Under the pieces are notes generated by a model. It saw nothing but the letters and a program-made list of their open reading frames with translations, did not search any database and was not told the DNA's origin. A DNA stretch of 61,493 bases from Deltaproteobacteria bacterium CG11_big_fil_rev_8_21_14_0_20_47_16 (GTDB lineage Bacteria; UBA10199; GCA-002796325; 1-14-0-20-47-16): assembly GCA_002796325.1 (NCBI GenBank), contig PCXA01000001.1, positions 436,752 through 498,244 of the forward strand, in the 5' to 3' direction. Of this stretch, positions 27,306 to 42,998 are shown in pieces (within the stretch, counting starts at the first letter, position 1; each line of letters begins with the position of its first letter). Position numbers and translations under genes: made by a program.

Positions 27306-29336
27306 GTGGCGCCTCGAGATAAAAAGAAAAAGGTAGTGAAAAAGGTGGTTAAGAAAAACGTCAGGTCCGTCCCCCTTGATTCACCTGTTCATGCGCAATT
27401 GGCTCGACGTGAAGCTGAGCTCAAAATTTTAGAAAGAATGTCCAAATCATTTTGGTCAACGCTTGATTACACCACCATTTCACAACATCTTTTTCAAATG
27501 CTTCATGAGTATACTCCATTTGATGCGCTACTACTTATGTTGCGAGGTCCCAATGGCCACCAGTTAATTGTGACATCCCAGAAGAAGATTACGCAGTCAT
27601 CCGTGGGCATCCTATGCAAAGATGCTATTCAGCAATTTGGACGCAGCACCTCTACTAAATTGTCCAAAAATGACATTTTCTGTATTCCCAATATAATTAA
27701 GACTTCTGATATATCGGGTAATTTGACTGTTAAGCATACCCATTTTTTGCCGCTGAATGTGTTAGATAAAACCCATGGCATTATCGGTTTTGTCTCGTCA
27801 GATCGTAAGGTGCAATTTGATGAGAATACATTTATCAATATTGTGGCCAACGAGTTGGCGCTGGTGGTGGATTATCAGCATATCCAGGAAAAGCTCCTAC
27901 GAGAGCGCAATATGCTGTCATCAATCCTGCATAGTATGACAAGTGCTGTGGTGGTGGTGGATGAGTTGCAAAATGTGATATTGTTGAACCCAATGGCAGA
28001 AGTGATTTTAGGTGTGAGTGCCAATAATGTGATTGGTAAAAAGATACAACATGTGGTTTCAGATAAAGAAGTTTGTAAATTATTTGGTGTTGTTTCTAAT
28101 CAGGCAAGTGAATATTTAAGTCGAGAAATGGAAATTGCCAATACGACTCAAGGTCGGTCGATGGAAGTCAAAGCCAATCTTGCAAAGGTGCGTAATCCAG
28201 GGGGGAGGGTCGCTGGTGTCGTGATGGTGTTAAACGACGTCACCCATGAACACGATGTTGAACGCGCGCGCACGGAATTTGTATCTGTGACATCTCATGA
28301 ACTGCGTACGCCAATGGCGGCGATTCGTGAAGCAGTTTCACTCATCATCGATGGTGTAACGGGCCCGATAAACGATAAACAGCGTAAGTTCCTAGATATG
28401 GCACGTCGTAACATTGATCGCCTAACAGCTATTATTAACGATCTGTTGGATTTATCTAAAATTGAATCAGGTAAGCTGCAATTAACACGTGAAATGGTTT
28501 CGCCGAATACCATTGCAGAGGGTGTATTTATAACCTTCGAATCCGCTGCTCAAGAAAAGGAGATTTCACTCCTGAAGAATTTTGCAGAACGCTTACCGAA
28601 AATTCAGGTAGATCAAGATAAAGTGGCACAAATTTTGACGAATTTGGTTTCGAATGCCATTAAGTTTACACCCAAAGAAGGAATGATCACGATTGGAACG
28701 TGTTTGAGTAAAAAAAATAATAAGTTCATTGAATTTTATGTCAAGGATACGGGTATTGGGATTGACCATAAGGACTTTGGAAAACTATTTCAAAAGTTTG
28801 CCCAAATCGACTCTTCATTAAGTAAAGTTGCTGGTGGTACAGGTTTGGGATTGGCGATTTCTAAGGAGCTGGCTGAAATGCATGGCGGTCATATTTGGGT
28901 AGAGTCGGAGCCTGGAAAGGGAAGTAGTTTTCATTTATTGTTGCCTGTTCGGGCATTGGAAGTAGCCGATCGTCATCGGTATGTGCTGTTGGTGACGGGT
29001 AATGTGGAGACAAGCGATCTTCTGAGTAGCGCTCTTAGAAAAGGAAGGTTTGATGTGGGATGTGTGGCGCGCGGCGTTCAGGTTTTGGACAAAATTCACG
29101 AGAGACGTCCAGACTTGATTATTGTTGATAGTAAGTTGCCAGACATGGATGGTCTGGCCTTGTGTAAGAATCTGAAAAGTGATTCTACGACAGCGCTTTT
29201 GCCAATTGTCTTTTTGACAGAGGCAGGTCAGGAAAATAAAATATGGGGCGCCTTGTCACTTGGAGTGAATGGCTATCTGGTGGGGCCCATGGATCGAAAT
29301 GCAATTTTGACAGCAGTCAAGGAAGCAATACCTTAA
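27306..29336 (+). CDS. Soluble hybrid sensor histidine kinase with a degenerate receiver domain, 676 aa
   Basis: No membrane helix is seen. Order: Lys-rich N-terminus (1-20); GAF-like sensor (about 45-190); PAS (about 205-310, SSILHSMTSAVVVVDELQN); HisKA with SHELRTPMAAI (phospho-His331); HATPase_c with NLVSNAIKFTP, DTGIGI and GGTGLGLAISKEL; C-terminal receiver (about 550-676). In that receiver Asp608 is present (VDSKLPDMDG), but the acidic pair is replaced by TGN and the conserved Lys by Gly (YLVGP), so phosphotransfer is doubtful. The start is GTG (27306) after GGAG. It is the first gene of the Pel run. A TATACT hexamer at 27263-27268 is a candidate -10, without a clear -35. Probably controls Pel synthesis through the adjacent receiver. 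Confidence 0.88.
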   Translation: MAPRDKKKKVVKKVVKKNVRSVPLDSPVHAQLARREAELKILERMSKSFWSTLDYTTISQHLFQMLHEYTPFDALLLMLRGPNGHQLIVTSQKKITQSSVGILCKDAIQQFGRSTSTKLSKNDIFCIPNIIKTSDISGNLTVKHTHFLPLNVLDKTHGIIGFVSSDRKVQFDENTFINIVANELALVVDYQHIQEKLLRERNMLSSILHSMTSAVVVVDELQNVILLNPMAEVILGVSANNVIGKKIQHVVSDKEVCKLFGVVSNQASEYLSREMEIANTTQGRSMEVKANLAKVRNPGGRVAGVVMVLNDVTHEHDVERARTEFVSVTSHELRTPMAAIREAVSLIIDGVTGPINDKQRKFLDMARRNIDRLTAIINDLLDLSKIESGKLQLTREMVSPNTIAEGVFITFESAAQEKEISLLKNFAERLPKIQVDQDKVAQILTNLVSNAIKFTPKEGMITIGTCLSKKNNKFIEFYVKDTGIGIDHKDFGKLFQKFAQIDSSLSKVAGGTGLGLAISKELAEMHGGHIWVESEPGKGSSFHLLLPVRALEVADRHRYVLLVTGNVETSDLLSSALRKGRFDVGCVARGVQVLDKIHERRPDLIIVDSKLPDMDGLALCKNLKSDSTTALLPIVFLTEAGQENKIWGALSLGVNGYLVGPMDRNAILTAVKEAIP

Positions 29337-29345
29337 GGAGTTTTT

Positions 29346-29720
29346 ATGGCAGAAAAACAAAAAATTATGATCGTGGAAGACCAGTTTTTTCTGGCTGAAA
29401 TGATCCGCACCCGTTTGGAATTTTTGGGATATGATGTGATTTATGCCGAGCATGGTGCGCGGGCACTTGAGTTGTTGCAGAAGGATCCAGTTGATTTGAT
29501 CATTATGGACGTTATGATGCCAGTGATGGATGGTATTGAGGCAACCAAGCGTATTCGCACCGATAAGGCAATCAAGGATATCCCAATTATCTTTTTGACT
29601 GCCAGGGCCCGGGCAGAAGATCGTCAGCAGGCGATGGATGCGGGTGCTACGGACTATATTGCAAAGCCATTTGAAAGTAGCCAGTTAACCGCAATGGTGG
29701 AGAAGTGGCTCAAAAAATAA
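29346..29720 (+). CDS. Single-domain response regulator (canonical receiver), 124 aa
   Basis: A CheY-like receiver without output domain. All catalytic residues are present: Glu11-Asp12 acidic pair, Asp55 phosphoacceptor (IIMDVMMPVMDG), Thr85 and Lys107 (YIAKPF). AAGGAG immediately precedes the start, 10 bp after the kinase gene, and the pelA-like gene starts within its 3' end (16 bp overlap), so kinase, receiver and polysaccharide genes are on one message. It probably accepts phosphate from His331 of the kinase and acts by protein contact, perhaps on a Pel subunit. Confidence 0.92.
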   Translation: MAEKQKIMIVEDQFFLAEMIRTRLEFLGYDVIYAEHGARALELLQKDPVDLIIMDVMMPVMDGIEATKRIRTDKAIKDIPIIFLTARARAEDRQQAMDAGATDYIAKPFESSQLTAMVEKWLKK

Positions 29721-31750
29721 TTTTGGCTCTTTTGTTAGTTTCATCTGTTGCCTTTGCAGGAGAACCCCTTCCTCGCAAGATTCTCGCGCTGTACGATGCC
29801 CGCGAGTATTCCGATCACTTTTTTACACCTCTTCATCAACAAGCGGAAATGCCACTCAATTATTTGGGTATGGAGCTGGTTTTTCGAGATGTTAACCAGC
29901 CTTTGCCATCAACTGCTGAGATGGCCAACTTTAGGGGAGTCATTACGTGGTTTGAAAAGCGTCAGGCTGTGCAAAGGCCTGCAGATTATTGCTCCTGGAT
30001 ATTGTCAGAGATGGATCGGGGAAAGAAACTGGTTATTTTGGGGCGCTTGGGATTTGCGACGATGGAAAGAGATCGCATTGATCCAGTTTGCCAAAAAGCG
30101 CTAGAGAAACTGGGTGTTCGCTATTTGGGTAATCGTTCAGAATCGCGATTTTTTTTAAAAATTACTAAAAAGGACCATGACATGGTCGAGTTTGAGCATG
30201 ATCTGGGTGCAAATGATGACTTGAATTATGCCCAGTTCAAGATTGTTGATCCTAGAGCGCATGTTTATTTGCAGGCAAATCGCATTGACATGTCAGATAG
30301 TGAGTCGGCGTTGGTGATTACAAGTCCCAATGGCGGACTTGTGTATGATTCTTACGTATTGATTGAAGATCGTGACTTACATAAGTTGCATTGGCGGATT
30401 AATCCATACCGTTTTTTTGAAGAAGCGTTTGGTGTGACAGGGTGGCCGCGTCCTGATCCAACAACCATGAATGGGTCTCGCATTTTCTATAGTCACATTG
30501 ATGGCGATGGTATCTTCAATGTTTCACACATTGACCAACATTCCTACTCTGCCGAAATCATATTAGAAGATGTGCTGAAGAAAAATTTGGATGTGCCAGT
30601 CTCGGCATCTATTATCGCTGGCTATTTGGATCTTCCTCAGTATGCAGGTGAGCGAGAAATGAGTTTGTACCGCAATTTGTTTTCGCTTTCCAATGTTGAG
30701 CCCGGTGTACATGGGTATGCGCATCCCTTAATTTGGAAGAAGCAGACGGTGGCACTCAAGATTCCAGGATATCAGTATAGTGTTGATATGGAAGTAAAAG
30801 GGGCTGTTGAGAAAACACGGAACCTGCTCTCAAAGCTGCACATTCCAAAGGATGTGACCCTATATCAATGGACAGGAAATTGTTTGTTGCCGCCCGAGGC
30901 CCTGGCGAGTGCAGAGGCAGCGCACGTGGAAAATATGAATGGTGGTGATACCCGCTTTGATCGACAGTTTGATAGCTATGCGTTTGTGTATCCGTTGAGT
31001 ATTGTAAAGGGTGGACGTCGACAAGTGTATATTAGTGCATCGAATGAGAATACATATACCAATCTTTGGGAGGGGCCCTATTATGGATATGCAGATGTGC
31101 TGCAGACGTTTGATAATACAGAATCTCCACGTCGGATAAAGCCTGTAAATATCTACTATCACTACTATAGTGGTGAACGGCAAGCTGCCTTGCAGGCTGT
31201 TAAAAAGGCCTATGATTATGCCCATACCCATTCACTTTTAGCGATGTGGGCCAGTGATTGGCCACCCATTGTGAATGATTTTTTTGCAACAAAAGTGACA
31301 CCGATTGCAGGTGGCTATCAGATTCATAATCTGGGTAAGTTGCGTACAATTCGTTTTGATCATGAAAGGCGCAATGTGGATATGCTGCATTCCAAGGGTG
31401 TTGTTGGGTTTGCACATGAACGGGGCAGTCTTTATGTGAGTCTGGATGAGGGGGTAGATCATTCTATTATTTTGACGTCGGCACACCAAGACCGTCCGTA
31501 CATCATAAATGCAACATTCAAAACGCGTGCGTTTCAGTGGGAACCCGGCGGTATTCGCTTTGAAAAGTTGGGGTGGATGACGAGTCATATGCGTTTGGGG
31601 GGTATGCATCCAAATGCGACATATACTATCTTGGCTGGCACAGCGCCATTTTCAGAAAAGGCAGATCGTAATGGTGAATTAGAGATCCATTTTTCAAAAG
31701 CAGAGATGGGTCGGCAGTACCAAGAAGTGATTGTCCGATTGTCGCAGTAA
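29705..31750 (+). CDS. pelA: PelA-like periplasmic polysaccharide deacetylase lacking the glycoside-hydrolase domain, 681 aa
   Basis: Probably deacetylates GalNAc/GlcNAc units of Pel polysaccharide in the periplasm. A signal peptide ends near AFA|GEP. Residues about 24-240 match the Rossmann/flavodoxin-like middle domain of PelA. About 255-560 is the CE18-type deacetylase: the metal/base motif HIDGDG (264-269), GVHGYAHP (334-341) with two His, MNGGDTRFDR, and YYHYYSGERQAALQAV. A C-terminal beta-rich domain follows. Pseudomonas PelA is about 948 aa and begins with a GH114-type hydrolase domain, which is absent here. The start is GTG at 29705, inside the end of the receiver gene. Confidence 0.88.
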   Translation: MAQKIILALLLVSSVAFAGEPLPRKILALYDAREYSDHFFTPLHQQAEMPLNYLGMELVFRDVNQPLPSTAEMANFRGVITWFEKRQAVQRPADYCSWILSEMDRGKKLVILGRLGFATMERDRIDPVCQKALEKLGVRYLGNRSESRFFLKITKKDHDMVEFEHDLGANDDLNYAQFKIVDPRAHVYLQANRIDMSDSESALVITSPNGGLVYDSYVLIEDRDLHKLHWRINPYRFFEEAFGVTGWPRPDPTTMNGSRIFYSHIDGDGIFNVSHIDQHSYSAEIILEDVLKKNLDVPVSASIIAGYLDLPQYAGEREMSLYRNLFSLSNVEPGVHGYAHPLIWKKQTVALKIPGYQYSVDMEVKGAVEKTRNLLSKLHIPKDVTLYQWTGNCLLPPEALASAEAAHVENMNGGDTRFDRQFDSYAFVYPLSIVKGGRRQVYISASNENTYTNLWEGPYYGYADVLQTFDNTESPRRIKPVNIYYHYYSGERQAALQAVKKAYDYAHTHSLLAMWASDWPPIVNDFFATKVTPIAGGYQIHNLGKLRTIRFDHERRNVDMLHSKGVVGFAHERGSLYVSLDEGVDHSIILTSAHQDRPYIINATFKTRAFQWEPGGIRFEKLGWMTSHMRLGGMHPNATYTILAGTAPFSEKADRNGELEIHFSKAEMGRQYQEVIVRLSQ

Positions 31751-31792
31751 AAGTCATGGATATTCGGATTGCATCTATATATATAGGGCCGC

Positions 31793-34684
31793 TTGAAACT
31801 CTCTAAACTCAAATTGTTTGCCTTTTTTGGTGTGTTGGCACTTTTGCTGTGGGCGTTGTACCCGCGTGGTATGTTGTTAGGGTATATCTACGAAGGTCTT
31901 GCTGATCTATCACGATCAGAAGCTTATTACCGAGACTATCTTCTCCAAAATCCAACAGACAAGCGCGCAGTGGTGCGTTTGGTTTCAGTCTATGATCGCC
32001 TGGGTGAACCCAATAAAGCGAATGAATTGTTAGCGCATCTGTATGATCATCGGCCCACTGATTTTGAAGTGGCTTCACTTTGGTTGGATCATCTTGAAAA
32101 TGTACACGATGAAAATGCTTTATATGATGCCCGTCTGAAAGTTGCCCGCAATTTGATGCAGTCAGCACATCCGCCGAAGCAGGAAGTGGAAGATCTTCTC
32201 AGTTCTGCATTTGCTCAAGCTCGCTGGAATCATAAAGTGGATGATATGGAAGAGATTCTTGCAACGCTTCTGATTGTTGCACGCGACAAGGTGCCTTACC
32301 GCGAGGAGTTAAAGCATCTCTATTTCAATGTGCGCAAGACGGATAAGTTGCTAGCAATTCTTAAAGAGCGCTTACGAGCCTACCCCGATGATATCGATAC
32401 AACAGAAGAGTTGATCGTAATTGATATGACTTTGGGTAATCTGAAGGAAGCGCAGATCTATATTGACTCTGCGCTCCATCAAGATCCCAATTCACCTGTT
32501 ATTTTGCAATTACAAGTGGAACTGTTGGGGCAGCAAAAACAATATGCTCAGCAGGTGCTTGTTGCCAAAAACCTACTGAGCTTACATGTGCTTTCGACAG
32601 AGGAAGAGTGGGGTGTAACCTCAAGTCTTGCAGAAGCCTTGGTTAGTTTGGGAAAATTTGATGAGGCAATGGAATATTATCAAGCGCTTTTGGCGCAAGA
32701 TCGTTCGAATCCGAATAATTGGCTCAATGTGATGAGTGTTTTGGATAGACAGGGTAAGTATCGCGACTTGCTTGCACTCCTGAAGGACTACCTTCAGCAA
32801 TTTCCGGAAGACAGTGAGCAAAAGAAGATGTTGGCTGAAACCTATCTCTATAAGCTGAAGGACCTTTCAGTCCTACCTGTTTACCGAGAGTATGTGGAAA
32901 GCAGCCATTCGCTTACTTTTGCAATGGATGTGGGTAACAGTTTGGCCGATGCCAAGTTGCTACCTGAGGCAATTGATTGGATCACCGAAATGCTGTCGTT
33001 GTTTCCACGAAATCAGCAAATGATTTTGTCTCTTGCAGAATGGTCTGCGGTGCTTCATCGAACGGCCGATGCCCAGCATTGGTATGTGGTTCTGGCGGAC
33101 CTGACACCGAACGATGCAACCCTTCAATTGAAAATTGGATCAGAATTATTTGCATTGGCAGATCCTAAAGATGCTGAGGTGTCTCTCAATCGGGTAGTAA
33201 AGATGGATGCTAACAATGCAGATGCCTGGTTTTGGCTCTCTGAAATTCATGCCCAGAATAATATGACGCTGGCTAAAAGTGAAGCGCAGCGTGTGGTAAC
33301 ACTGTTGGAAGGCCGTAACACTTTAGATGAGCAGCATAGTTGGATGTTGCTCCACTCGCGTATGCGTCTAAGGGAGTCACCAAAGGTTTTGCTCCCCGAT
33401 TATGCAGTTGCTGTGGCCCAATATCCACATCATGCAGATTTGTTAGCAGATGAAATTGATTTGATGATTGAATCCCATCATCTATCTGAAGCACGTGCAC
33501 GAATTTCAGATTATCAGCGTCAATTCCCAAAAGACGCAAGACGAGTGCGGCTTATGCAGGTGAGGCTTGCCTTTGTGGAGAAGGATTGGAAGGCTGCCAT
33601 AGCCTTGTTAGAACCAATGGCGAACGAAACCCCTGGGGATGAGCATGTTGCCAATGATCAATGGGGTGTGAAGCGTGATTTAGGGGAGGCCTATTACAAT
33701 GATGGACAGTGGTGGAAGGCCCTTCCGCTATTAGAAAAAGTTCAGGCAGCCACAGGTGAGCGTTATCAGGTTGCCACCACCATTTTTGATTTGCATAAAA
33801 ATTATGATACGCGTGTGACACCACTGTTTAGTTATACGCGTTTCGGAAGCGAATATTTTACATTTGGTGGTGTGCAGTTTAAAAAATATCTCACTCACAA
33901 TTGGGAACTTAATTCTGAAGTTAAAGAAGGCTACTTTGCGTCGCCATCTTCCAACTATAGTGGTTATACCGAAACCGGAAGCGTAACGGTGGCCAGTCAT
34001 CACCTGCGTCCTTGGCATGTCTCTTTGGGTGTGGAAGGTGCTGGGAGTAGTGAGCGTACAACGGCATCTCCCACATTGACATTGGAGTACAGGCCAGAGC
34101 CAGATACGTTCTTTCAGTTTTTGGGCACCTATCGTAAATTGCGGCAGGATTTACCCCAAGCCGTGGCCTTTGGTAACCTGATGGACATTGTTCAATTTCA
34201 AGGGCAGAGAGTGTTTTTTGATCGTCTCGTGTTATCTGCTAAATATTGGTATGAACGTGATTATTTGCCTTCAGGGGCGTCTGCTCATGGGAGTAATACA
34301 GAACCCTCGGCCCAAGTGATTATCTTTAAAAAGCCTTACGTTACGTTGGGATGGCAGATGGATTATATTCGACTGAATTCCGATGGGAACTTCCTTAATT
34401 CAGTACCGCTTATCCCTTATATGAATGCACAATACGCGGTGGGTGCCATTAGTGGACGCCCCGTGCCCGAATTGTTATTGGAAGGCAGCTTTTACGACGG
34501 TCATGACTTTGACCGGGGGCTAAGTATTTTAGGGGGCGATTTGTGGGGCGTGAGGGGTGGATTTGACTGGGCGGCGACCCACTGGTTGGATATATTTGGA
34601 TCATACGAATTTGGCCGGCAACGCTTGCTTGATATTCCCGGCTATAGTAGCTTTGTAAAATTCGGACTTTCAGGACACTGGTGA
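31793..34684 (+). CDS. pelB: PelB-like TPR scaffold with C-terminal outer-membrane beta-barrel, 963 aa
   Basis: The putative Pel export channel. An N-terminal membrane anchor (LFAFFGVLALLLWAL) is followed by TPR-type helical repeats over about 40-660 (LQNPTDKRAVVRLVSVYDRLGEP and similar), then from about residue 677 alternating beta-strands (PLFSYTRFGSEYF...) ending in an aromatic residue (SGHW), the usual outer-membrane barrel end. Pseudomonas PelB has the same plan at about 1193 aa. The start is TTG (31793) after AGGG; no ATG gives the anchor. It is 42 bp after pelA, and its stop overlaps the next receiver gene by 4 bp. Confidence 0.85.
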   Translation: MKLSKLKLFAFFGVLALLLWALYPRGMLLGYIYEGLADLSRSEAYYRDYLLQNPTDKRAVVRLVSVYDRLGEPNKANELLAHLYDHRPTDFEVASLWLDHLENVHDENALYDARLKVARNLMQSAHPPKQEVEDLLSSAFAQARWNHKVDDMEEILATLLIVARDKVPYREELKHLYFNVRKTDKLLAILKERLRAYPDDIDTTEELIVIDMTLGNLKEAQIYIDSALHQDPNSPVILQLQVELLGQQKQYAQQVLVAKNLLSLHVLSTEEEWGVTSSLAEALVSLGKFDEAMEYYQALLAQDRSNPNNWLNVMSVLDRQGKYRDLLALLKDYLQQFPEDSEQKKMLAETYLYKLKDLSVLPVYREYVESSHSLTFAMDVGNSLADAKLLPEAIDWITEMLSLFPRNQQMILSLAEWSAVLHRTADAQHWYVVLADLTPNDATLQLKIGSELFALADPKDAEVSLNRVVKMDANNADAWFWLSEIHAQNNMTLAKSEAQRVVTLLEGRNTLDEQHSWMLLHSRMRLRESPKVLLPDYAVAVAQYPHHADLLADEIDLMIESHHLSEARARISDYQRQFPKDARRVRLMQVRLAFVEKDWKAAIALLEPMANETPGDEHVANDQWGVKRDLGEAYYNDGQWWKALPLLEKVQAATGERYQVATTIFDLHKNYDTRVTPLFSYTRFGSEYFTFGGVQFKKYLTHNWELNSEVKEGYFASPSSNYSGYTETGSVTVASHHLRPWHVSLGVEGAGSSERTTASPTLTLEYRPEPDTFFQFLGTYRKLRQDLPQAVAFGNLMDIVQFQGQRVFFDRLVLSAKYWYERDYLPSGASAHGSNTEPSAQVIIFKKPYVTLGWQMDYIRLNSDGNFLNSVPLIPYMNAQYAVGAISGRPVPELLLEGSFYDGHDFDRGLSILGGDLWGVRGGFDWAATHWLDIFGSYEFGRQRLLDIPGYSSFVKFGLSGHW

Positions 34685-35055
34685 CCATGGATAAAAAACA
34701 AATTTTGATTGTAGATGATGAAGTTGATTTTACGGAAATTGTGAGCACGCTACTCGATTTTCATAACTTTCAGGCCGATACCATTAATGATCCCAAGCAA
34801 GTTGTCGAAGCGTTGCAAAAGAAACATTACGATCTTATCGTCACAGATCTTATGATGCCCGGTATGGATGGATTTCAGTTGGTTGAGACGCTTCGTGGCG
34901 ACCCTAAGTACCATAATATTCCAGTCATTGTGTTGTCAGCGAAGCTTTTGTCCGATGAAGAACGCAAGCGGTTACTGGTGAGTAATGTGAGTTTTCTGAC
35001 CAAGCCCTTTGAGCCCCAGGGTCTTGTTGAAAAAATTACCCAGATGCTTGCATAA
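34681..35055 (+). CDS. Single-domain response regulator located in the usual pelC position, 124 aa
   Basis: A stand-alone receiver: acidic pair Asp12-Asp13, phosphoacceptor Asp56 (IVTDLMMPGMDG), Ser86 and Lys108 (LTKPF), so it should be phosphorylatable. It sits between pelB and pelD, exactly where pelC (outer-membrane lipoprotein) lies in pelABCDEFG operons, and bears no resemblance to PelC. The start is GTG at 34681 with a Shine-Dalgarno-like AGGA 5 nt upstream; the ATG at 34687 is an alternative. The 4-bp overlap with pelB implies translational coupling. Confidence 0.9.
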   Translation: MTMDKKQILIVDDEVDFTEIVSTLLDFHNFQADTINDPKQVVEALQKKHYDLIVTDLMMPGMDGFQLVETLRGDPKYHNIPVIVLSAKLLSDEERKRLLVSNVSFLTKPFEPQGLVEKITQMLA

Positions 35056-35111
35056 GCCACCCTAAGCACTTGTCTTTATAGCATTTTCCATATATCGTGC
35101 AGCACTAACTC

Positions 35112-36488
35112 ATGAAACTTCGCCACTTCATTGAAGTCATCGTTGTTTATGTTGCCTTGGCAGCCATAAACCTTCTTCTATTTCCCCAATATCCAGGATT
35201 TGTTGGTGTGGATCCAAGTCCATATTGGATCGGTGTTTTACTTTTTGGATTTCGCTATGGTGTTGTGGCAGGTTTGATGTCGGGGCTGGCCTCTGCATCA
35301 TTGTATCTTGCTATGGCCTGGTTGGGAATTGAGCGTTATCAATTCGAAGACATTTCCTTCTATATTCTGCCAGCGCTTTTTGTGATTGTGGGTGTTTTAA
35401 TTGGTGTGGGTGTCTATCAATATCGTGAAATCATTCGTCAGCTTAAGGGGGAAAAGAGTGTTTTGGAAGTGCAGTTAGCAGGAAAAGAAACAGAAGTGAC
35501 AACGTTGACCACTATTAATTCAGGTTTGGAAAAGCGTATTGTTACCCGGATGCAAACACTCGTCACTCTCTATGAAGGTGCGTTATCCTTGGGAGAAACC
35601 GAGCTCGATGTGTTGTATCGTGCAATTCTAAAATTTGTCTCTAAAACCCTGCAGGCAGAGTCTGCAGCAATATATGTGAAGGTAGATGATGGCTGGCGAC
35701 TTAAGGAGAGTATCGGCTGGAAGGAGTATGAGCGCCATTTGACTTCACTAAAGCCACGTGAGGGGTTAACGGGGTTGGCGGGTTCTGGTAATAAAATTGT
35801 GACGATTAGGGATTTTGTTACACCAAATCAAAATGAAGATATCTTGGCTGATGCAGTAATGGCGGGACCCATTCACGCTGGTGAAAAGGGGGAAGTTGTC
35901 GCGGTTCTTTCTATTCAGGACATCCCATTCTTACAGTTTAGTAGTGCCTCTGTTAACTTGTTTTCATTTTTGCTGGATTGGGCTTCGCGCTCTTTGGGTC
36001 GTGCTAAAGAAATGGAGACGCTCAAGGAGGGTGAAATTTGGGATAGCCAGTTTAATGTGTTTTCCCATCGCTATTTTGAGCAGCGTGCGGGTCAAGAATG
36101 GATCCGTTCCAAGACATACTATTTGCCACTAAGTATGGGCTTGGTTGAAGTGTTGGGTTTAGACACATTATCCAAAGATGCCGAGGAACAGCTTCTATTG
36201 ATCGTTGCACAGGTGCTCCGTGAGAGTTGTCGGGAAATGGATGTAGTGGCGCGTTATCCTGATCCTGGTATCCCATTTGCGTTTTTGCTTATTACAGCCA
36301 GTGCCACTCAGGCTGCTGAGATTCAGAAGAAGATTCTTAACAATTTTGAAAAGTTGCAGCTAGGACACCATAATTCGACATTCGCTTCTATCTCAATCAA
36401 AGTGGGGCTTTCCAATTTTACACCCCAAGTGCCCAATATTGACGCCATGAATCGTCAGGCAATGGAGTCACTCCATGCTACAGTCTAG
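35112..36488 (+). CDS. pelD: PelD-like c-di-GMP receptor, GAF plus degenerate GGDEF, 458 aa
   Basis: An inner-membrane regulatory subunit that in Pseudomonas binds c-di-GMP and switches on Pel synthesis. Three or four N-terminal helices (about 8-110) are followed by a coiled coil (about 110-150), a GAF domain (about 155-305) and a C-terminal GGDEF-like domain. The GGDEF signature has decayed (RYPDPGIPF), so cyclase activity is unlikely, but the inhibitory-site RxxD survives as R374-E-M-D377, just upstream as in Pseudomonas PelD (R367xxD370). c-di-GMP control is thus expected. It starts 56 bp after the receiver gene and overlaps pelE by 14 bp. Confidence 0.9.
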   Translation: MKLRHFIEVIVVYVALAAINLLLFPQYPGFVGVDPSPYWIGVLLFGFRYGVVAGLMSGLASASLYLAMAWLGIERYQFEDISFYILPALFVIVGVLIGVGVYQYREIIRQLKGEKSVLEVQLAGKETEVTTLTTINSGLEKRIVTRMQTLVTLYEGALSLGETELDVLYRAILKFVSKTLQAESAAIYVKVDDGWRLKESIGWKEYERHLTSLKPREGLTGLAGSGNKIVTIRDFVTPNQNEDILADAVMAGPIHAGEKGEVVAVLSIQDIPFLQFSSASVNLFSFLLDWASRSLGRAKEMETLKEGEIWDSQFNVFSHRYFEQRAGQEWIRSKTYYLPLSMGLVEVLGLDTLSKDAEEQLLLIVAQVLRESCREMDVVARYPDPGIPFAFLLITASATQAAEIQKKILNNFEKLQLGHHNSTFASISIKVGLSNFTPQVPNIDAMNRQAMESLHATV

Positions 36489-37488
36489 ATCTCTGATCAT
36501 TTGGATCGTTGTGGGTTTGTGTGAGTTACCTGTTTCGGCAAATCTGCTTTTGGGCAAGCACATGTTGTGGAGTGTTGCAATTGCCGCACATTTGGTTGCA
36601 GGAATTTTGGCCTATTTGGCACCTGCCAAGCAAGCTCAACACCGTATTCATTTGATACTATCAACGCCCTGGGCGGTATGGCTTGCACTGTGGGTGCTTT
36701 TTTTACCCGGAGTTGGGTGGATTTTTGGATCTATAATGCTCGTGGGCAGCCGTTGGGGAAATGTCAAAGCCCATCAGGATGATACGGGTGAAGTGTTACC
36801 TGCCAGCGCGCTTCCAATTATAAAGCCCGCACAAGAGCCGACAAGCCGTGTGATGCAACAATTGGATTTTCTACCACTTGTTGAGGTGATGGCATGTGAT
36901 GATATTGATTTGAAGCGAAGTGCGATCGAGCAGCTGGCACGATTACGATCGCCCGACGCAATGAAGATTTTACTGCAGTATCGTCGTGATCCATCGTTGG
37001 AAGTGCGATTCTATGTCAATTCAGCACTGTCACGAATCAAGAAGGAGTTTGATGAGGCGTTGGATGCTGCTCGTCGGCAAATGCAGCTGGATGTTTATAA
37101 GGTTTCGGCACGTATATTTTTGGCCAAAATCTATTTGCAGTATGCACAGTCGGGCCTTTTAGATCATGACATGGTCAAGATGTATGAAGATGAGGCCATC
37201 TTTCACCTGACATTTTCAATTGAATCAAAATATGCTGTCCCAGAGGCATTTCGCATATTGGTGAATTGTTATATAGAGCAAGCAGAGTGGGATAAAGCCT
37301 TAGCTGTTGTGCAAAAATCGTGTGATGTTCAAATTGGATATGATCTTGAAATGCAGCAGTGCTATGTCGAGATTTTGTATCATATGAAGAGGTTTGCAGA
37401 TGTGCGTCCAGCGCTACAGGTGCTGCAGTCAAATTATCTGTTGCCTCATGATTGGCAAACAACTGCACTTTGGTGGGGGGCTTCGTAA
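36475..37488 (+). CDS. pelE: PelE-like membrane protein with HEAT/TPR-type soluble region, 337 aa
   Basis: Two to three N-terminal hydrophobic helices (about 5-95), then a helical repeat region: KRSAIEQLARLRSPDAMKILLQYRRDPSLEVRFYVNSALSRIKKE is HEAT-like and the rest TPR-like. Pseudomonas PelE has the same membrane-plus-helical-repeat plan and works with PelD in the inner-membrane complex. Identification rests on architecture and position between pelD and pelF rather than on motifs. The start lies 14 bp inside pelD, and the stop overlaps the next start (TAATG). Confidence 0.75.
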   Translation: MLQSRSLIIWIVVGLCELPVSANLLLGKHMLWSVAIAAHLVAGILAYLAPAKQAQHRIHLILSTPWAVWLALWVLFLPGVGWIFGSIMLVGSRWGNVKAHQDDTGEVLPASALPIIKPAQEPTSRVMQQLDFLPLVEVMACDDIDLKRSAIEQLARLRSPDAMKILLQYRRDPSLEVRFYVNSALSRIKKEFDEALDAARRQMQLDVYKVSARIFLAKIYLQYAQSGLLDHDMVKMYEDEAIFHLTFSIESKYAVPEAFRILVNCYIEQAEWDKALAVVQKSCDVQIGYDLEMQQCYVEILYHMKRFADVRPALQVLQSNYLLPHDWQTTALWWGAS

Positions 37489-39446
37489 TGGACCTTCAGC
37501 AAATACGACGTGATATTGAAGGAGAATTGGAAGACGCACGATTTTTGGCGTTCATGTCATTGTACACATCATCAGAACCAGGTGTTCAAGAGGAAGTTGA
37601 TCGTATCGTTAATCAAAATGATCCCATTTTGAAGCTCATGTTTCTGCGCTTTTTAAGTCATGTGCCTGAAAGAAAAGCGGTGGGATACATTTGCCGGCTT
37701 ATGGAAAATGATAACGTCGTCGTCTCAGAAGCCGCCAGGCATGCATTTGAACAAAACCGATATGAAGCGCGGCTAGACATATTAATGCCACTCATTTTTT
37801 CAAAAATCTTTTATGCGCAACGTTTTGCCATAGAGTTTGTAGGGCGTGAAGGACGAATGGATGCGGTTGAACCGCTTGTCACAATGGCAGAAAATGCAAA
37901 TGAAGCGCTGTTGCTTGTTATTCTAACAACATTGCGATTTCTGCCCAGTGTTAGCTCGATTCCAATAACCTTACACTATATTAATGATCAGAGAGAGGAA
38001 GTGCGCTTTCGGGCAACCCTGCTTTGTGGCGAATTGATGGATGTTGAGATGAAGCAATTGCGCTCTTCGCTTTTATCTCTTTTACAGGATCCGTCTTCAC
38101 GTGTGCGGCGTGCGGCGCTATGGGGATTGCGTCGACATCCTGAAAAGAGCGATGTTGAGATACTGATTGTGATTGCGACAAAAGACTCTGACCCCATGGT
38201 TCGCCAAGAAGCAATTTTGGGTTTAGCAGAATTTCCAAACGATAGGGTGATTCAGATGCTGTTAAATATTTTGGTAACAGAAAAAGATCGCTGGGTATCT
38301 TTGAAGTGTGAATCTGTTTTGTTGGGAATGCCATCACGATATTTAATTAAAGGTCTTAATGATGTTTTAGCGCACGCAAAAGGGGATGTTCGCAATAAGG
38401 CAATTTTATTGGCTGCAGACTACCAGCGTGGCTCTCCTGAATATTTGAAGTTCCTTCTAAAAGGGCTTGTCAATGTGGCATCCGACAAAGAGAGGATTCC
38501 TTATTTGGAAGCGTTGGGTATTTTTGGCAGCCCTGATGCGGTCCCAATTCTATTGATGTATGTTTATGGCAGTCCGATTGTGGCTTATGTGGCGATGACA
38601 TCGCTACTCAAAGTCCACCCCAGTCCTGATACCTATTTAACTTATCTTGAGAAGCCAAATACATCTTCGCTTATTAAACAAATTGTGTTGCGCTATCTTG
38701 CGCGGAAGCCACTGGTTGATCGTACTTATCGAGATCGTCTGGTGAAATGTCTGATGGGCTTTTTGAGGGGTGATAATATTAATATGCGCTATCTGGCCGC
38801 GCAGGTTCTCATTAATGTAACGGGCGAAGAGGCGCAGGAGGCGTTGCTGGATACCATTGAACATGAAACAGATCCGGCATCACTTCATTTGCTTAGAACC
38901 AGCCTTACCGAATTTTTTACTAAGGATCCTCAAGGGTTTGTGGACTTGCTATCACGGCGGCGTGATTCTGAATTTGTCTTTGGCGAAATGGGGCTACTGC
39001 TTCAAGATGTTATCTGGAGTTCAAATGATATTCTTGCACAGTTGCCGTCGTTGCTTTCTCCAGATTTTGTAAAGGGGAATGAAGTTTATCTTCAGAACTG
39101 TGTAGTTTGGTTGGCGGACCAAATTCTACAGGGACGTGTTTCTCTTGAAAATGTCCTTAAAACGATAAGGGGTATACCTGGTGTGGAGTCAGTAGTTGTG
39201 CGTCTTTCCAAAATCCTGGTAGCGCACCCCGATGTGCGCCTGACAATTTCTGCTGATACATGTCAACGCTGGCTGAAAACTGGGGATGATGCCTCATGTG
39301 CAGCTATTATTGATTTGATGGGTATTGCTCATGATGTGTCGAGCATTCCTGTTTTGGTCTCAGTTGTATGCAATGATGCGCTGCAGCCATTTCGACAGAA
39401 TGCGGTGGAGGCCTTAGGTCGCTTAACGGGGGCAGTGAATGATTGA
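37488..39446 (+). CDS. HEAT-repeat scaffold protein inserted between pelE and pelF, 652 aa
   Basis: A soluble all-helical protein with at least 10-12 HEAT units: DPSSRVRRAALWGLRRHP and DPMVRQEAILGLAEFPNDRV are clear examples, with a last unit near FRQNAVEALGRLTG. No signal peptide or membrane segment is visible, so it is probably cytoplasmic. The start at 37488 shares its A with the pelE stop codon, after GGTGGGGGG; its stop overlaps pelF by 8 bp, so it is an integral operon member. The canonical pelABCDEFG operon has no such gene. A scaffold linking PelD/PelE to the PelF transferase, or docking the receiver proteins, is inference only. Confidence 0.85.
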   Translation: MDLQQIRRDIEGELEDARFLAFMSLYTSSEPGVQEEVDRIVNQNDPILKLMFLRFLSHVPERKAVGYICRLMENDNVVVSEAARHAFEQNRYEARLDILMPLIFSKIFYAQRFAIEFVGREGRMDAVEPLVTMAENANEALLLVILTTLRFLPSVSSIPITLHYINDQREEVRFRATLLCGELMDVEMKQLRSSLLSLLQDPSSRVRRAALWGLRRHPEKSDVEILIVIATKDSDPMVRQEAILGLAEFPNDRVIQMLLNILVTEKDRWVSLKCESVLLGMPSRYLIKGLNDVLAHAKGDVRNKAILLAADYQRGSPEYLKFLLKGLVNVASDKERIPYLEALGIFGSPDAVPILLMYVYGSPIVAYVAMTSLLKVHPSPDTYLTYLEKPNTSSLIKQIVLRYLARKPLVDRTYRDRLVKCLMGFLRGDNINMRYLAAQVLINVTGEEAQEALLDTIEHETDPASLHLLRTSLTEFFTKDPQGFVDLLSRRRDSEFVFGEMGLLLQDVIWSSNDILAQLPSLLSPDFVKGNEVYLQNCVVWLADQILQGRVSLENVLKTIRGIPGVESVVVRLSKILVAHPDVRLTISADTCQRWLKTGDDASCAAIIDLMGIAHDVSSIPVLVSVVCNDALQPFRQNAVEALGRLTGAVND

Positions 39447-40899
39447 TGTGTGTCTACTATTGGAAGGATCTTATCCCTATGTGGCAGGTGGTGTATCCAC
39501 GTGGGTACATCAGCTTATTGGTGCGATGAAAGATATTCGATTTGGGATTGTGTATATCACACCCCATTCAGATCCAACACGTGAGTTCAAATACACACTT
39601 CCCAATAATGTGATTTATCTTAAGGAATTGTGCCTACACGATTATGCCCTAGATGTTGTTGCGCCACGTCGCCCTAAAAAGTCGGACTATGAAACGTTGA
39701 TTGGATTTTATGAAAATGTGCTGCAAGGGCGTTATGATGGTTTTGAAGATGTTGTTCCTCTCTTTCAAGGACATAATGCCTGTTTTGACTTTAAGTCCTT
39801 CTTTGAATCAAAATCTATATGGGCAAGTCTCATTAAAAATTATCAACAGTATGCATCAGACACCGCCTTTTTAGATTTCTTTTGGACATGGCGTGGCACT
39901 CAGTTGCCGCTGTTGCAGGTTGTGATGACCGAGGTGCCGAGAGCGCCCATCGTTCATGCTATTTCAACGGGATATGCTGGTCTTTTGGGGGCTGTTGCCA
40001 AGATTGCATATGGTAATCAGTTTTTCTTAACTGAACATGGCATTTATACCCATGAGCGTATGCTGGAAATTGCACAAGCAACTTGGATTTATGAGCGTGA
40101 ACGTATGGGCTATCGTGCAGAACAACATATGTCAGTGTTTAAACAATGGTGGCTAGGTATTTTTAAGGTGATGGGTAGTTTGGCATATCGACATGTGGAT
40201 CGAATTTTTACGTTGTACGAAGGCAATCGACTCCGCGAAATTCTGGAAGGTGCTAATCCTGAAAAGATTACCATCATTCCAAATGGGATCGACGTGGCAT
40301 CCTATGAATCAATCGAAAGAGAGCGCAAGCCTGTTCCTCAAATCGGTTTTGTGGGTCGTATTGTGCGCATTAAAGATGCCAAAACCTTTATTCAGGCAGC
40401 CCGTTTGGTTCTAGATCAAATTCCAGATGCTGAATTTTATCTAATCGGACCTACTGATGAAGAAGAGGATTATGTAGAGGAGTGCGAGCTCATGATCGAG
40501 GCGCAGCATATGGAATCTAAAATTAAGTTGGTGGGAAGGTCAGATGTAAAAGAATATTACAAGTTTCTGGATCTGGTGGTTTTGACAAGTATTTCAGAGG
40601 CACAGCCCTATGTCATTTTGGAGGCGGGGGCGTCTGGTATTCCTGTGGTGGCGTCCGATGTGGGAGCGTGTCGTGAGATGCTGGAAGGACGTGATCCCGA
40701 GGATATTGCCATTGGCCCTGGAGGGATTGTTACAGAGGTGTCCAATGCAGAATCAACGGCAGAGGCAATTGTTAAGTTGTTAAGTGACCGCGTGCTACAA
40801 AAGCGTTGTTCTGAGGCGGCACGCATTCGCGTGCACCGTTATTATAATCAAGACGATTTGTTGAGTCGTTATCTTAACTGTTACGAGCAGGGGATGTAA
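39439..40899 (+). CDS. pelF: PelF, GT4 family UDP-sugar glycosyltransferase, 486 aa
   Basis: The cytosolic polymerising transferase of Pel. The N-terminus IDVCLLLEGSYPYVAGGVSTWVHQLI is diagnostic of PelF. Other family blocks are GHNACFDFKSFFES, FLTEHGIYTHERMLEI, IPNGIDVASYE, GFVGRIVRIKDAKTFI and the EX7E-type donor site SISEAQPYVILEAGASG. The length is close to that of Pseudomonas PelF (about 507). It overlaps the HEAT gene by 8 bp and is directly followed by pelG. Confidence 0.96.
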   Translation: MIDVCLLLEGSYPYVAGGVSTWVHQLIGAMKDIRFGIVYITPHSDPTREFKYTLPNNVIYLKELCLHDYALDVVAPRRPKKSDYETLIGFYENVLQGRYDGFEDVVPLFQGHNACFDFKSFFESKSIWASLIKNYQQYASDTAFLDFFWTWRGTQLPLLQVVMTEVPRAPIVHAISTGYAGLLGAVAKIAYGNQFFLTEHGIYTHERMLEIAQATWIYERERMGYRAEQHMSVFKQWWLGIFKVMGSLAYRHVDRIFTLYEGNRLREILEGANPEKITIIPNGIDVASYESIERERKPVPQIGFVGRIVRIKDAKTFIQAARLVLDQIPDAEFYLIGPTDEEEDYVEECELMIEAQHMESKIKLVGRSDVKEYYKFLDLVVLTSISEAQPYVILEAGASGIPVVASDVGACREMLEGRDPEDIAIGPGGIVTEVSNAESTAEAIVKLLSDRVLQKRCSEAARIRVHRYYNQDDLLSRYLNCYEQGM

Positions 40900-42297
40900 A
40901 TGGCGGGTATTGGCTTTCGACTGCAAAAGTTACTCAGTGGTGATTCATATACCGATTTGGTGAAGGCCTACCTATATTCGGCGATGATTGCGGCGGGTCC
41001 CATGTTGGTGGTGATGGCCACGTTGGGGATTGTGAAGCGCATTGCCCAAGACTCATTGGGCCTGGATGGTGAAGCAGAGTTTATGGGTTTGGTTGTTTAT
41101 GTGTATTCATTTTCAATGGTTATTGTTTCTCCTTTCTATTTTACAGTGACGCGCTTTTTGGCAGATCGTTATTATCTTAAAGATTTTGCAAGTTTCTCCC
41201 CGACATACTTTTCAGTGATGGGTATTGTGATTGTTCTGCAAGTTATGTTGGGAGGGTGGTGGGTGTCGCGCCTGCCAATACCTCTGGAAGTGGCTGTGTG
41301 GGAAGTGATGCTGTATGTTAGTGTGAGTGGAATCTGGATGGCGTCCATTTTTCTATCAGCTGCGCATAACTATATCTGGATGGCTGTATCATTTGTGGGC
41401 GGTGGAATATTGGGGGTCATTTGCGGCATTGTGGGCGGTTATTATTACGGACTAGCGGGGTTTTTGGGCGGATTTGCAATTGGCCAAATTGCAACCTGGG
41501 CGATGCTGAGTTTACAAATTGTTCGCGAATTTGGGTATCACATTGCCTATCAGTTTGGATTTTTGAAATATTTTATTAAGTACCCACTGCTGGTGTCTGT
41601 TGGGTTGCTCTATTATATTGGTATCTGGGTTGATAAGTGGGTGTTTTGGATGTCCCCAAATGCGACGCTCATTTTACAACATATTCGGGTGATGCCAGAT
41701 TATGATACCTCTTTGTTTGTGGCCTATCTCACAATTGTGCCATCGCTTGCCTTTTTTCTTATTCAAATGGAAACCTCATTTGTACAAGTCTACCAAAGTT
41801 ATTTTGTCGCAATTCGGCAGCACGCCACGTTTGGTGTGATTAGCGCGTGTGAACAGCGTATCGCGGATACAATTTCCAACCAATTCCAGCGCTTTGCAGT
41901 ATTTCAAGGGCTAATTAGTGGCATGGCGATCTTGTTTGCGCCTCAGATTGCTGACCTATTTAAGTTAAGTCCTGCGCAAGTGGGTATCTTCCGCGTGGGT
42001 ATTCTGGGTGCATTCATGCAGATGGGAATGATTATGATTATTAACCTGCTATTTTATTTCGATGCTCAGTTAGATGCGGTTTTGATTACGCTTTTGTTTA
42101 TGATCTGTAATGCTGTTTTTGCGCAAGTGACGCTGTATTTGGGGCTTCCGGCATATGGGTTCGGTTATACGTGCGCCTCGTTTTTGTCGCTGTTGATTGG
42201 ATTCTTTGTGCTAGATCGCCGCATTCGATTCATGAGCTATTGGACCTTTATGCGTCAGCCTGTTGTGATTCCGAAGTTTAAGCTGGAATCGGAATAG
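40900..42297 (+). CDS. pelG: PelG, polytopic polysaccharide transport protein, 465 aa
   Basis: An inner-membrane MOP/Wzx-like protein with about 12 helices that, in the Pseudomonas model, moves Pel across the membrane with PelF, PelD and PelE. The N-terminus MAGIGFRLQKLLSGDSYTDLVKAYLYSAMIAAGP and the block ALFFLIQMETSFVQVYQSYF-like (present as LAFFLIQMETSFVQVYQSYF) are typical of PelG. Its start follows the pelF stop with no gap. It is the last gene of the run. Downstream, 20 bp later, lies the REP-like element and then the opposite-strand RAYT gene. Confidence 0.94.
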   Translation: MAGIGFRLQKLLSGDSYTDLVKAYLYSAMIAAGPMLVVMATLGIVKRIAQDSLGLDGEAEFMGLVVYVYSFSMVIVSPFYFTVTRFLADRYYLKDFASFSPTYFSVMGIVIVLQVMLGGWWVSRLPIPLEVAVWEVMLYVSVSGIWMASIFLSAAHNYIWMAVSFVGGGILGVICGIVGGYYYGLAGFLGGFAIGQIATWAMLSLQIVREFGYHIAYQFGFLKYFIKYPLLVSVGLLYYIGIWVDKWVFWMSPNATLILQHIRVMPDYDTSLFVAYLTIVPSLAFFLIQMETSFVQVYQSYFVAIRQHATFGVISACEQRIADTISNQFQRFAVFQGLISGMAILFAPQIADLFKLSPAQVGIFRVGILGAFMQMGMIMIINLLFYFDAQLDAVLITLLFMICNAVFAQVTLYLGLPAYGFGYTCASFLSLLIGFFVLDRRIRFMSYWTFMRQPVVIPKFKLESE

Positions 42298-42368: not shown

Positions 42369-42998
42369 TTAGATTGTTTTTGGTTTTTTGGGAAGGCGTT
42401 TTGGTTGTAGCATATGGCGTATTGTTGCTTGCTCCCTTGCTTCATCGCTGGGTAATAAGTTGATGACAAAATCTCTGTAGAAACCTCGTCGGACTTCTTC
42501 GTTGTGTGCGAGTCCTAAGTATGATGGGTGTGGATCGATCGGAATTTTTGAATCGCCATGTGAATAAAAATTATATGCTGACCACGCCCATTTTTTTGGA
42601 TGTTCAACAATTCCGGCACGGACTGGATTGCGATCTAAATATCTCATGCAAGAAAGTGCGTATCTGTCTGTGTCAATTACCGAACATTTATAGTCATTGA
42701 TCCAAAGATGCCCATGGCGCTGATGTCGTTTATTGTAATCAAAAGCATACTTCTGATTGATTCCGTGCATGACGTGATTAAGCAGCGCAGGCCCGGGGGT
42801 GGTAATAATCAAATGAACATGACTATGCATAATAACAAGGTGATTTAGAAAAAATCCAAGCTGTTGGCGGCACTGGTCTACTATAAAAAGATATCGGTCA
42901 AAATCGTCCTTGGTTTGAAATCGAAAGTCCTTGTTGTTGCACTGCACGCGCACATGATAGCAAAGTCCCTCACCCAGTTTTCTTGGATAGCGTCCCAT
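42369..42998 (-). CDS. REP-associated tyrosine transposase (RAYT, Y1_Tnp/IS200-like), 209 aa
   Basis: A single-strand-DNA HUH nuclease. The HUH motif is HSHVHLI (in LVIMHSHVHLIITTP). The putative nucleophile tyrosine lies in the helix NQKYAFDYNKRH. RHGHLW, YALSCMRYLDRNPVRAGIVEHPKKWAWSAY is the RAYT-specific C-terminal block. The N-terminal MGRYPRKLGEGLCYHVRVQCNN is also typical. These proteins bind and cleave REP hairpins and are usually single copy and domesticated. Here the gene is flanked by inverted copies of a REP-like element. It appears intact and is isolated between the convergent pel and btu operons. Confidence 0.93.
   Translation of the reverse strand: MGRYPRKLGEGLCYHVRVQCNNKDFRFQTKDDFDRYLFIVDQCRQQLGFFLNHLVIMHSHVHLIITTPGPALLNHVMHGINQKYAFDYNKRHQRHGHLWINDYKCSVIDTDRYALSCMRYLDRNPVRAGIVEHPKKWAWSAYNFYSHGDSKIPIDPHPSYLGLAHNEEVRRGFYRDFVINLLPSDEAREQATIRHMLQPKRLPKKPKTI

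Follow-up and report, generated by a model that had tools for sequence, protein, structure and literature searches.

Why does an operon for Pel, a biofilm polysaccharide, carry a gene for a HEAT-repeat protein between pelE and pelF? In Pseudomonas, PelD, PelE, and PelG bring soluble PelF, which was inactive on its own, to the membrane (review PMC8461298), and the coupling of PelF to the membrane complex has been described as occurring "in a still unknown fashion" (PMC12141448). The gene in question (37488-39446, plus strand, 652 aa) lies in a stretch of 61,493 nucleotides from Deltaproteobacteria bacterium CG11_big_fil_rev_8_21_14_0_20_47_16, the whole of which we refer to as the window. An earlier note on this DNA took the gene for an undescribed, dedicated component of a Pel system that is missing from canonical operons. 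This claim held up, with pel-linked homologs found across our surveys. In our view, the gene likely codes for a cytosolic scaffold that is a dedicated subunit of the Pel synthase in a distinct subtype, for which the gene order would be receiver, pelD, pelE, HEAT, pelF, and pelG. A solenoid subunit whose gene separates pelE from pelF, with a receiver partner and in several phyla, offers a concrete handle on how PelF is anchored and switched.

The window operon and its additional gene

The window operon lies on the plus strand, in the order kinase, RR1, pelA-like, pelB-like, RR2, pelD, pelE, HEAT gene, pelF, and pelG. PelF (39439-40899), a GT4 glycosyltransferase and the Pel polymerase, matched NCBIfam PelF NF038011 with 469.6 bits (cut-off 100), and PelG (40900-42297), a membrane transporter-like subunit, matched Pfam PelG PF16933 with 376.3 bits (cut-off 29). 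The pelD-like gene (35112-36488) encodes an N-terminal hydrophobic part followed by GAF and GGDEF matches; the GGDEF domain is degenerate, with YPDPG in place of the GGDEF motif, and the RxxD c-di-GMP site (I-site) is intact (R374-E-M-D377). In its AlphaFold2 model, PelE (36475-37488) has N-terminal hydrophobic membrane helices, a linker, and a cytosolic helical solenoid of HEAT-like and TPR units, the TPR match being weak. Further upstream, the pelA-like gene (29705-31750; weak DUF2194 match) was assigned by position and operon conservation, and the pelB-like TPR gene (31793-34684) by Pfam TPR matches and position, which would suit a putative role in outer-membrane export. Directly before pelD is a single-domain receiver, RR2 (34681-35055; Pfam Response_reg, E = 9e-25), in which D12, D13, D56, S86, and K108 are all present. 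Judged by its PelF, PelG, PelD, and PelE, this is a predicted Pel polysaccharide synthase operon.

The run is headed (27306-29720) by a histidine kinase with a C-terminal receiver (27306-29336) and by the receiver-only response regulator RR1 (29346-29720), the 3' end of which overlaps the pelA-like ORF; RR1-like or kinase genes also lie upstream of pel in L046, L050, L052, L053, and L058. At the other end, directly 3' of pelG and on the minus strand, an ORF (42369-42998) resembles a small REP-associated/IS200-type transposase. A promoter/terminator scan gave no clear excess over shuffles.

The HEAT gene is packed tightly between its neighbors, as the earlier note had described. The last base of the pelE stop codon is also the first of its ATG (TAA 37486-37488, ATG 37488; TAATG), and its ORF overlaps pelF by 8 bp (HEAT stop TGA 39444-39446, pelF ATG 39439). 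Mechanical ORF calling placed the start at a TTG 36 bp earlier (37452; 664 aa). A GGTGGGGGG stretch lies ~7 nt 5' of the ATG, and a start at this ATG (37488; 652 aa) is preferable. Since its ORF overlaps those of both pelE and pelF, the gene is probably translationally coupled to the two.

The window operon matches Pseudomonas aeruginosa pelABCDEFG in PelD (GAF, degenerate GGDEF, and RxxD), PelE (TM and TPR), PelF (GT4), and PelG and in how these are ordered, but it adds a HEAT subunit between PelE and PelF and a receiver before PelD, and it lacks a PelC-like gene. No PelC-like lipoprotein ORF was found between pelA, pelB, and pelD (31750-35112). The Pseudomonas PelC ring is described as essential. 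PelC is, however, also missing from Gram-positive pel operons (PMC7112168), so its absence from the window operon does not exclude a Pel system. Small CsgG/LpoB-like ORFs occupy the place of PelC in two other loci (L073, 4682-5254; L136, 4845-5369). The Gram-positive operon of Bacillus cereus, pelDEA(DA)FG, shares the PelD-PelE-PelF-PelG core with the window; no HEAT or receiver gene is described for it, "heat" in that paper referring to calorimetry only (PMC7112168).

Linkage of the HEAT gene to pel loci

We sampled 46 genomes from the window's phylum, 15 of which have PelG. Wherever the pel locus can be read, the HEAT gene lies between pelE and pelF, including in one genome (G001) with a very divergent copy that a single-sequence search overlooked. 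One genome was left out, its pel region being masked with N (G007); in G034 the HEAT gene is present and pelF is cut by the contig end, and in G040 and G044 the pel loci are split over contigs. With a profile built with the pel-linked sequences included, which tests the absence of others, scores over the 46 genomes were bimodal: pel-linked proteins scored 219 to 797 bits and all others at most 100 bits, mostly through N-terminal repeats. All matches of at least 200 bits came from 15 genomes and lay at pel loci; the best match elsewhere (100 bits) shared generic N-terminal repeats only. The gene of this best non-pel match (G036, within L060:658-14638) encodes a HEAT-TPR protein beside secretion/flagellar-type export genes and was rejected as a family member, its homology being confined to the N-terminal repeats. 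One HEAT profile had included this protein, and the held-out test was also made without it.

To extend the survey, a PelF-based scan of GTDB genomes supplied 80 loci, and three more phyla plus Omnitrophota supplied 35 more stretches. The pelE-pelF slot is filled by a HEAT gene in L073, L075, L077, L080, L084, L085, L088, and L136, in every Bdellovibrionota locus that could be read, and in a set of Wallbacteria-like loci (L095, L108, L111, and L114). The gene is also found in Auribacterota, in one Planctomycetota MAG, and in Omnitrophota, where pel itself is rare (3/237 genomes), so that surveying this phylum contributed little. Among 290 Bdellovibrionota genomes, a profile made from that phylum (5 of the 20 matched genomes were not in the profile) matched 20 of the 21 genomes with PelF and none of the 269 others; in the 21st (G393, L218), a HEAT gene fills the slot as well. 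About 60 other surveyed loci have pelF directly after pelE with no HEAT gene between, among them loci of Pseudomonadota, Thermodesulfobacteriota, Myxococcota, Acidobacteriota, and Chlamydiota and most Riflebacteria loci, in agreement with the earlier statement that canonical Pel machines have no such protein.

Slot and size are constant: the protein has about 612-686 aa, and the ends of its gene abut or overlap pelE and pelF. HEAT proteins from the window's phylum and from Bdellovibrionota are co-linear over their full length (hhalign probability 99.96%, 631 columns, E = 7.5e-39), whereas an unrelated generic HEAT protein aligned over 232 N-terminal columns only. The Wallbacteria-like group aligned more weakly (hhalign 96%, 517 columns) and is a probable relative of the subfamily. 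By its pelE-pelF slot, its size (within about 610-690 aa), and its co-linear full-length homology, the window protein belongs to this pel-linked subfamily.

These results bear directly on the possibility that a generic HEAT gene is a hitch-hiker in one lineage's operon. Repeats of this kind are common and cross-match easily, and Wallbacteria-like genomes hold at least 50 HEAT matches, as hitch-hiking would allow; the bimodal scores, the invariant slot and size, the occurrence in several phyla, and the full-length co-linear homology nonetheless make it very improbable. A generic HEAT gene present by chance was rejected on the bimodal profile scores and the constant slot. The profile search that the earlier note had called for returned homologs that are pel-linked rather than scattered, and it strongly contradicts a family found mainly away from pel genes. 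On the PelF tree, most HEAT-bearing loci fall into one large group, and HEAT presence needs only four state changes. The HEAT gene is co-inherited with PelF over several phyla without visible loss.

Other arrangements were seen elsewhere. The Planctomycetota locus L098 (13015-14851) has a pelD-like gene together with a HEAT gene of 316 aa downstream of pelG, and its pelE is adjacent to pelF, possibly a rearranged or independent version of the HEAT-type locus. KSB1 genomes (L076, L083, and L097) have pelF and pelG, no recognizable pelD or pelE, and a receiver gene (675, 135, and 132 aa, respectively) directly 5' of pelF, possibly another regulatory arrangement.

The receiver gene upstream of pelD

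Where the HEAT gene is present, a single-domain receiver gene almost always lies directly 5' of pelD, a clue missing from the earlier note. With labels set by hand for each row from the locus table, 36 survey rows have both genes, three have the HEAT gene only (L061, L130, and L214), none has the receiver only, and 49, two of them duplicates, have neither. Because so few changes of HEAT state are needed on the PelF tree, this co-occurrence rests on few independent events, and an independent-pairs test of receiver versus HEAT gave one pair on starred branches and four on all branches. We suggest that the association is mostly one old, long-kept link rather than the product of many independent gains.

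The phospho-acceptor Asp is kept in 33 of 39 receivers and lost in L088, L095, L108, L114, L217, and L218, the assignment of L217 as a receiver being weak; phosphorylation therefore cannot be the mechanism everywhere. Pseudo-receivers without this residue lie beside HEAT-type pel genes at L095:1074-1457, L108:4971-5360, L114:2675-3106, and L088:5122-5556. Meanwhile, the RxxD c-di-GMP site of PelD is present at 33 of 43 HEAT loci versus 37 of 49 others. Because the site is kept as often in HEAT-locus PelD as elsewhere, the HEAT module would add to c-di-GMP control and not replace it.

The HEAT protein might, on this evidence, be chiefly a receptor for the single-domain receiver. It would then gate PelD/PelF as a phospho-dependent adaptor or brake instead of serving as a structural assembly scaffold. 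The near-perfect co-occurrence (36/3/0/49) extends to divergent Wallbacteria-like loci with a degenerate receiver, HEAT solenoids commonly bind folded partners, and in Myxococcus a single-domain receiver, EpsW, is known to activate, through direct contact, the phosphoglycosyl transferase EpsZ of a different exopolysaccharide pathway (PMC12802240). The Myxococcus xanthus pair resembles the window in tying a single-domain receiver to an exopolysaccharide machine, but EpsZ belongs to a Wzx/Wzy pathway, and no HEAT protein is involved (PMC12802240). A role that is mainly that of a receptor nevertheless appears unlikely to us, given the few independent events on the tree, the three HEAT loci with no adjacent receiver (L061, L130, and L214), the six receivers that lost the phospho-site, and a low partial co-variation between the HEAT protein and the receiver (r = 0.16, with shared operon history removed).

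The HEAT solenoid and its likely place in the synthase

The HEAT content of the protein is far above chance (Pfam HEAT_2 PF13646, 117.4 bits, cut-off 27.7; PF02985, 44.6 bits, cut-off 23.5). Its AlphaFold2 model, built from a 21-sequence alignment (pLDDT 91.5), is an all-alpha, uninterrupted solenoid of 41 helices along the entire chain, and no transmembrane segment was found in the 652 residues of this soluble protein. Scores against phycobilisome-type HEAT proteins remained below the NCBIfam equivalog thresholds (NblB, 28 bits versus 300; CpeY, 14.6 bits versus 600). Foldseek and VIA-align neighbors of the model are karyopherins, CAND1, PP2A PR65, and designed alphaRep binders, with VIA-align Z of 16-19 for HEAT/alphaRep/PR65 neighbors. 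These are non-catalytic binding scaffolds, and the match indicates architecture, not function. For the eukaryotic scaffolds (PP2A PR65/A subunit, karyopherins, and CAND1; Foldseek E 5e-8 to 2e-6), a HEAT solenoid is common to both sides; the likeness (TM-score 0.42 with PP2A PR65; VIA Z about 16-18 for PP2A A-subunit chains) is one of general architecture only, and nothing beyond the repeat points to a shared function or descent.

Conservation over 44 homologs is highest in helices 363-376, 394-406, and 431-444 (Y367/A369, Q398/L401, and R434-Y435-L436; motifs YxA..L, LxxQxxL, and NxNxRYLA), which are alternate helices of adjacent repeats. In HEAT proteins, such helices usually line one face. 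The conserved helices would then lie on one face of the protein, and residues 363-444 (38574-38819), its most conserved stretch, are a candidate binding surface.

The earlier note had also drawn attention to HEAT-like units in PelE and proposed that PelE and the HEAT protein stack into a joint scaffold. The units are indeed present in the window PelE (HEAT_2, E = 1e-7), but they are not special: they also occur in PelE from canonical loci that lack the HEAT gene (HEAT_2 E 2e-8 in L101 and 1e-6 in L074; the alignment agrees). We rejected them as a distinguishing feature, and because HEAT units are general in PelE, there is no special reason to expect a stacked HEAT-HEAT scaffold. A cytosolic scaffold that touches PelE remains plausible on other grounds, namely the lack of a transmembrane segment and a fusion at L130 (bacterium ADurb.Bin243). 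Here, a 699-aa ORF joins PelE (membrane helices, HEAT, and TPR) to ~350 residues of HEAT repeats and is followed by pelF with an 8-bp overlap; the same assembly also holds L111, with separate pelE and HEAT genes. As a single MAG locus, the fusion supports, but does not prove, a PelE-HEAT contact. Partial co-variation with HEAT distances, again with shared operon history removed, gave r of 0.40 for PelD, 0.27 for PelF, and 0.07 for PelE, a hint that weakly disfavors PelE as the main partner and points to PelD and PelF. A solved Pel complex that might serve as a template was sought by sequence; PelG returned none, and the PelD matches were all GGDEF proteins.

We suggest that the scaffold subunit would dock to the membrane complex of PelD, PelE, and PelG from the cytosolic side, with putative contacts to PelD, PelE, or PelF, and would hold or position PelF there. 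More tentatively, the HEAT protein or PelD might be the docking site for the single-domain receiver, and receiver phosphorylation might gate the synthase as an input additional to the binding of c-di-GMP by PelD; in Pseudomonas, this binding leaves complex assembly unchanged (review PMC8461298). Alternatively, the protein's tie to Pel might be one of regulation or assembly alone, with no place in the working synthase, as for a chaperone that helps PelF fold or reach the membrane. This would suit a gene that lies directly before pelF with overlapping ORFs, and canonical synthases work without the protein. Its retention in a deep PelF clade without visible loss, together with the one PelE fusion, suggests instead a standing place in the complex, and we judge such an accessory role improbable. 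Beyond a scaffold subunit, one may speculate, with some doubt, that receiver and HEAT solenoid form a gate on PelD/PelF in a widespread second type of Pel synthase with dual input, c-di-GMP via PelD and two-component phosphorylation via the receiver-HEAT pair.

No mention of a HEAT protein in pel operons was found in open-access Pel-operon papers and surveys, a search that leaves room for subscription papers. A subtype of Pel synthase with the HEAT protein and the receiver as two additional cytosolic parts is new to the open literature, and it suggests that published surveys of Pel operons leave a whole subtype undescribed. The HEAT protein can be used as its marker gene, general family libraries giving only a generic HEAT-repeat label.
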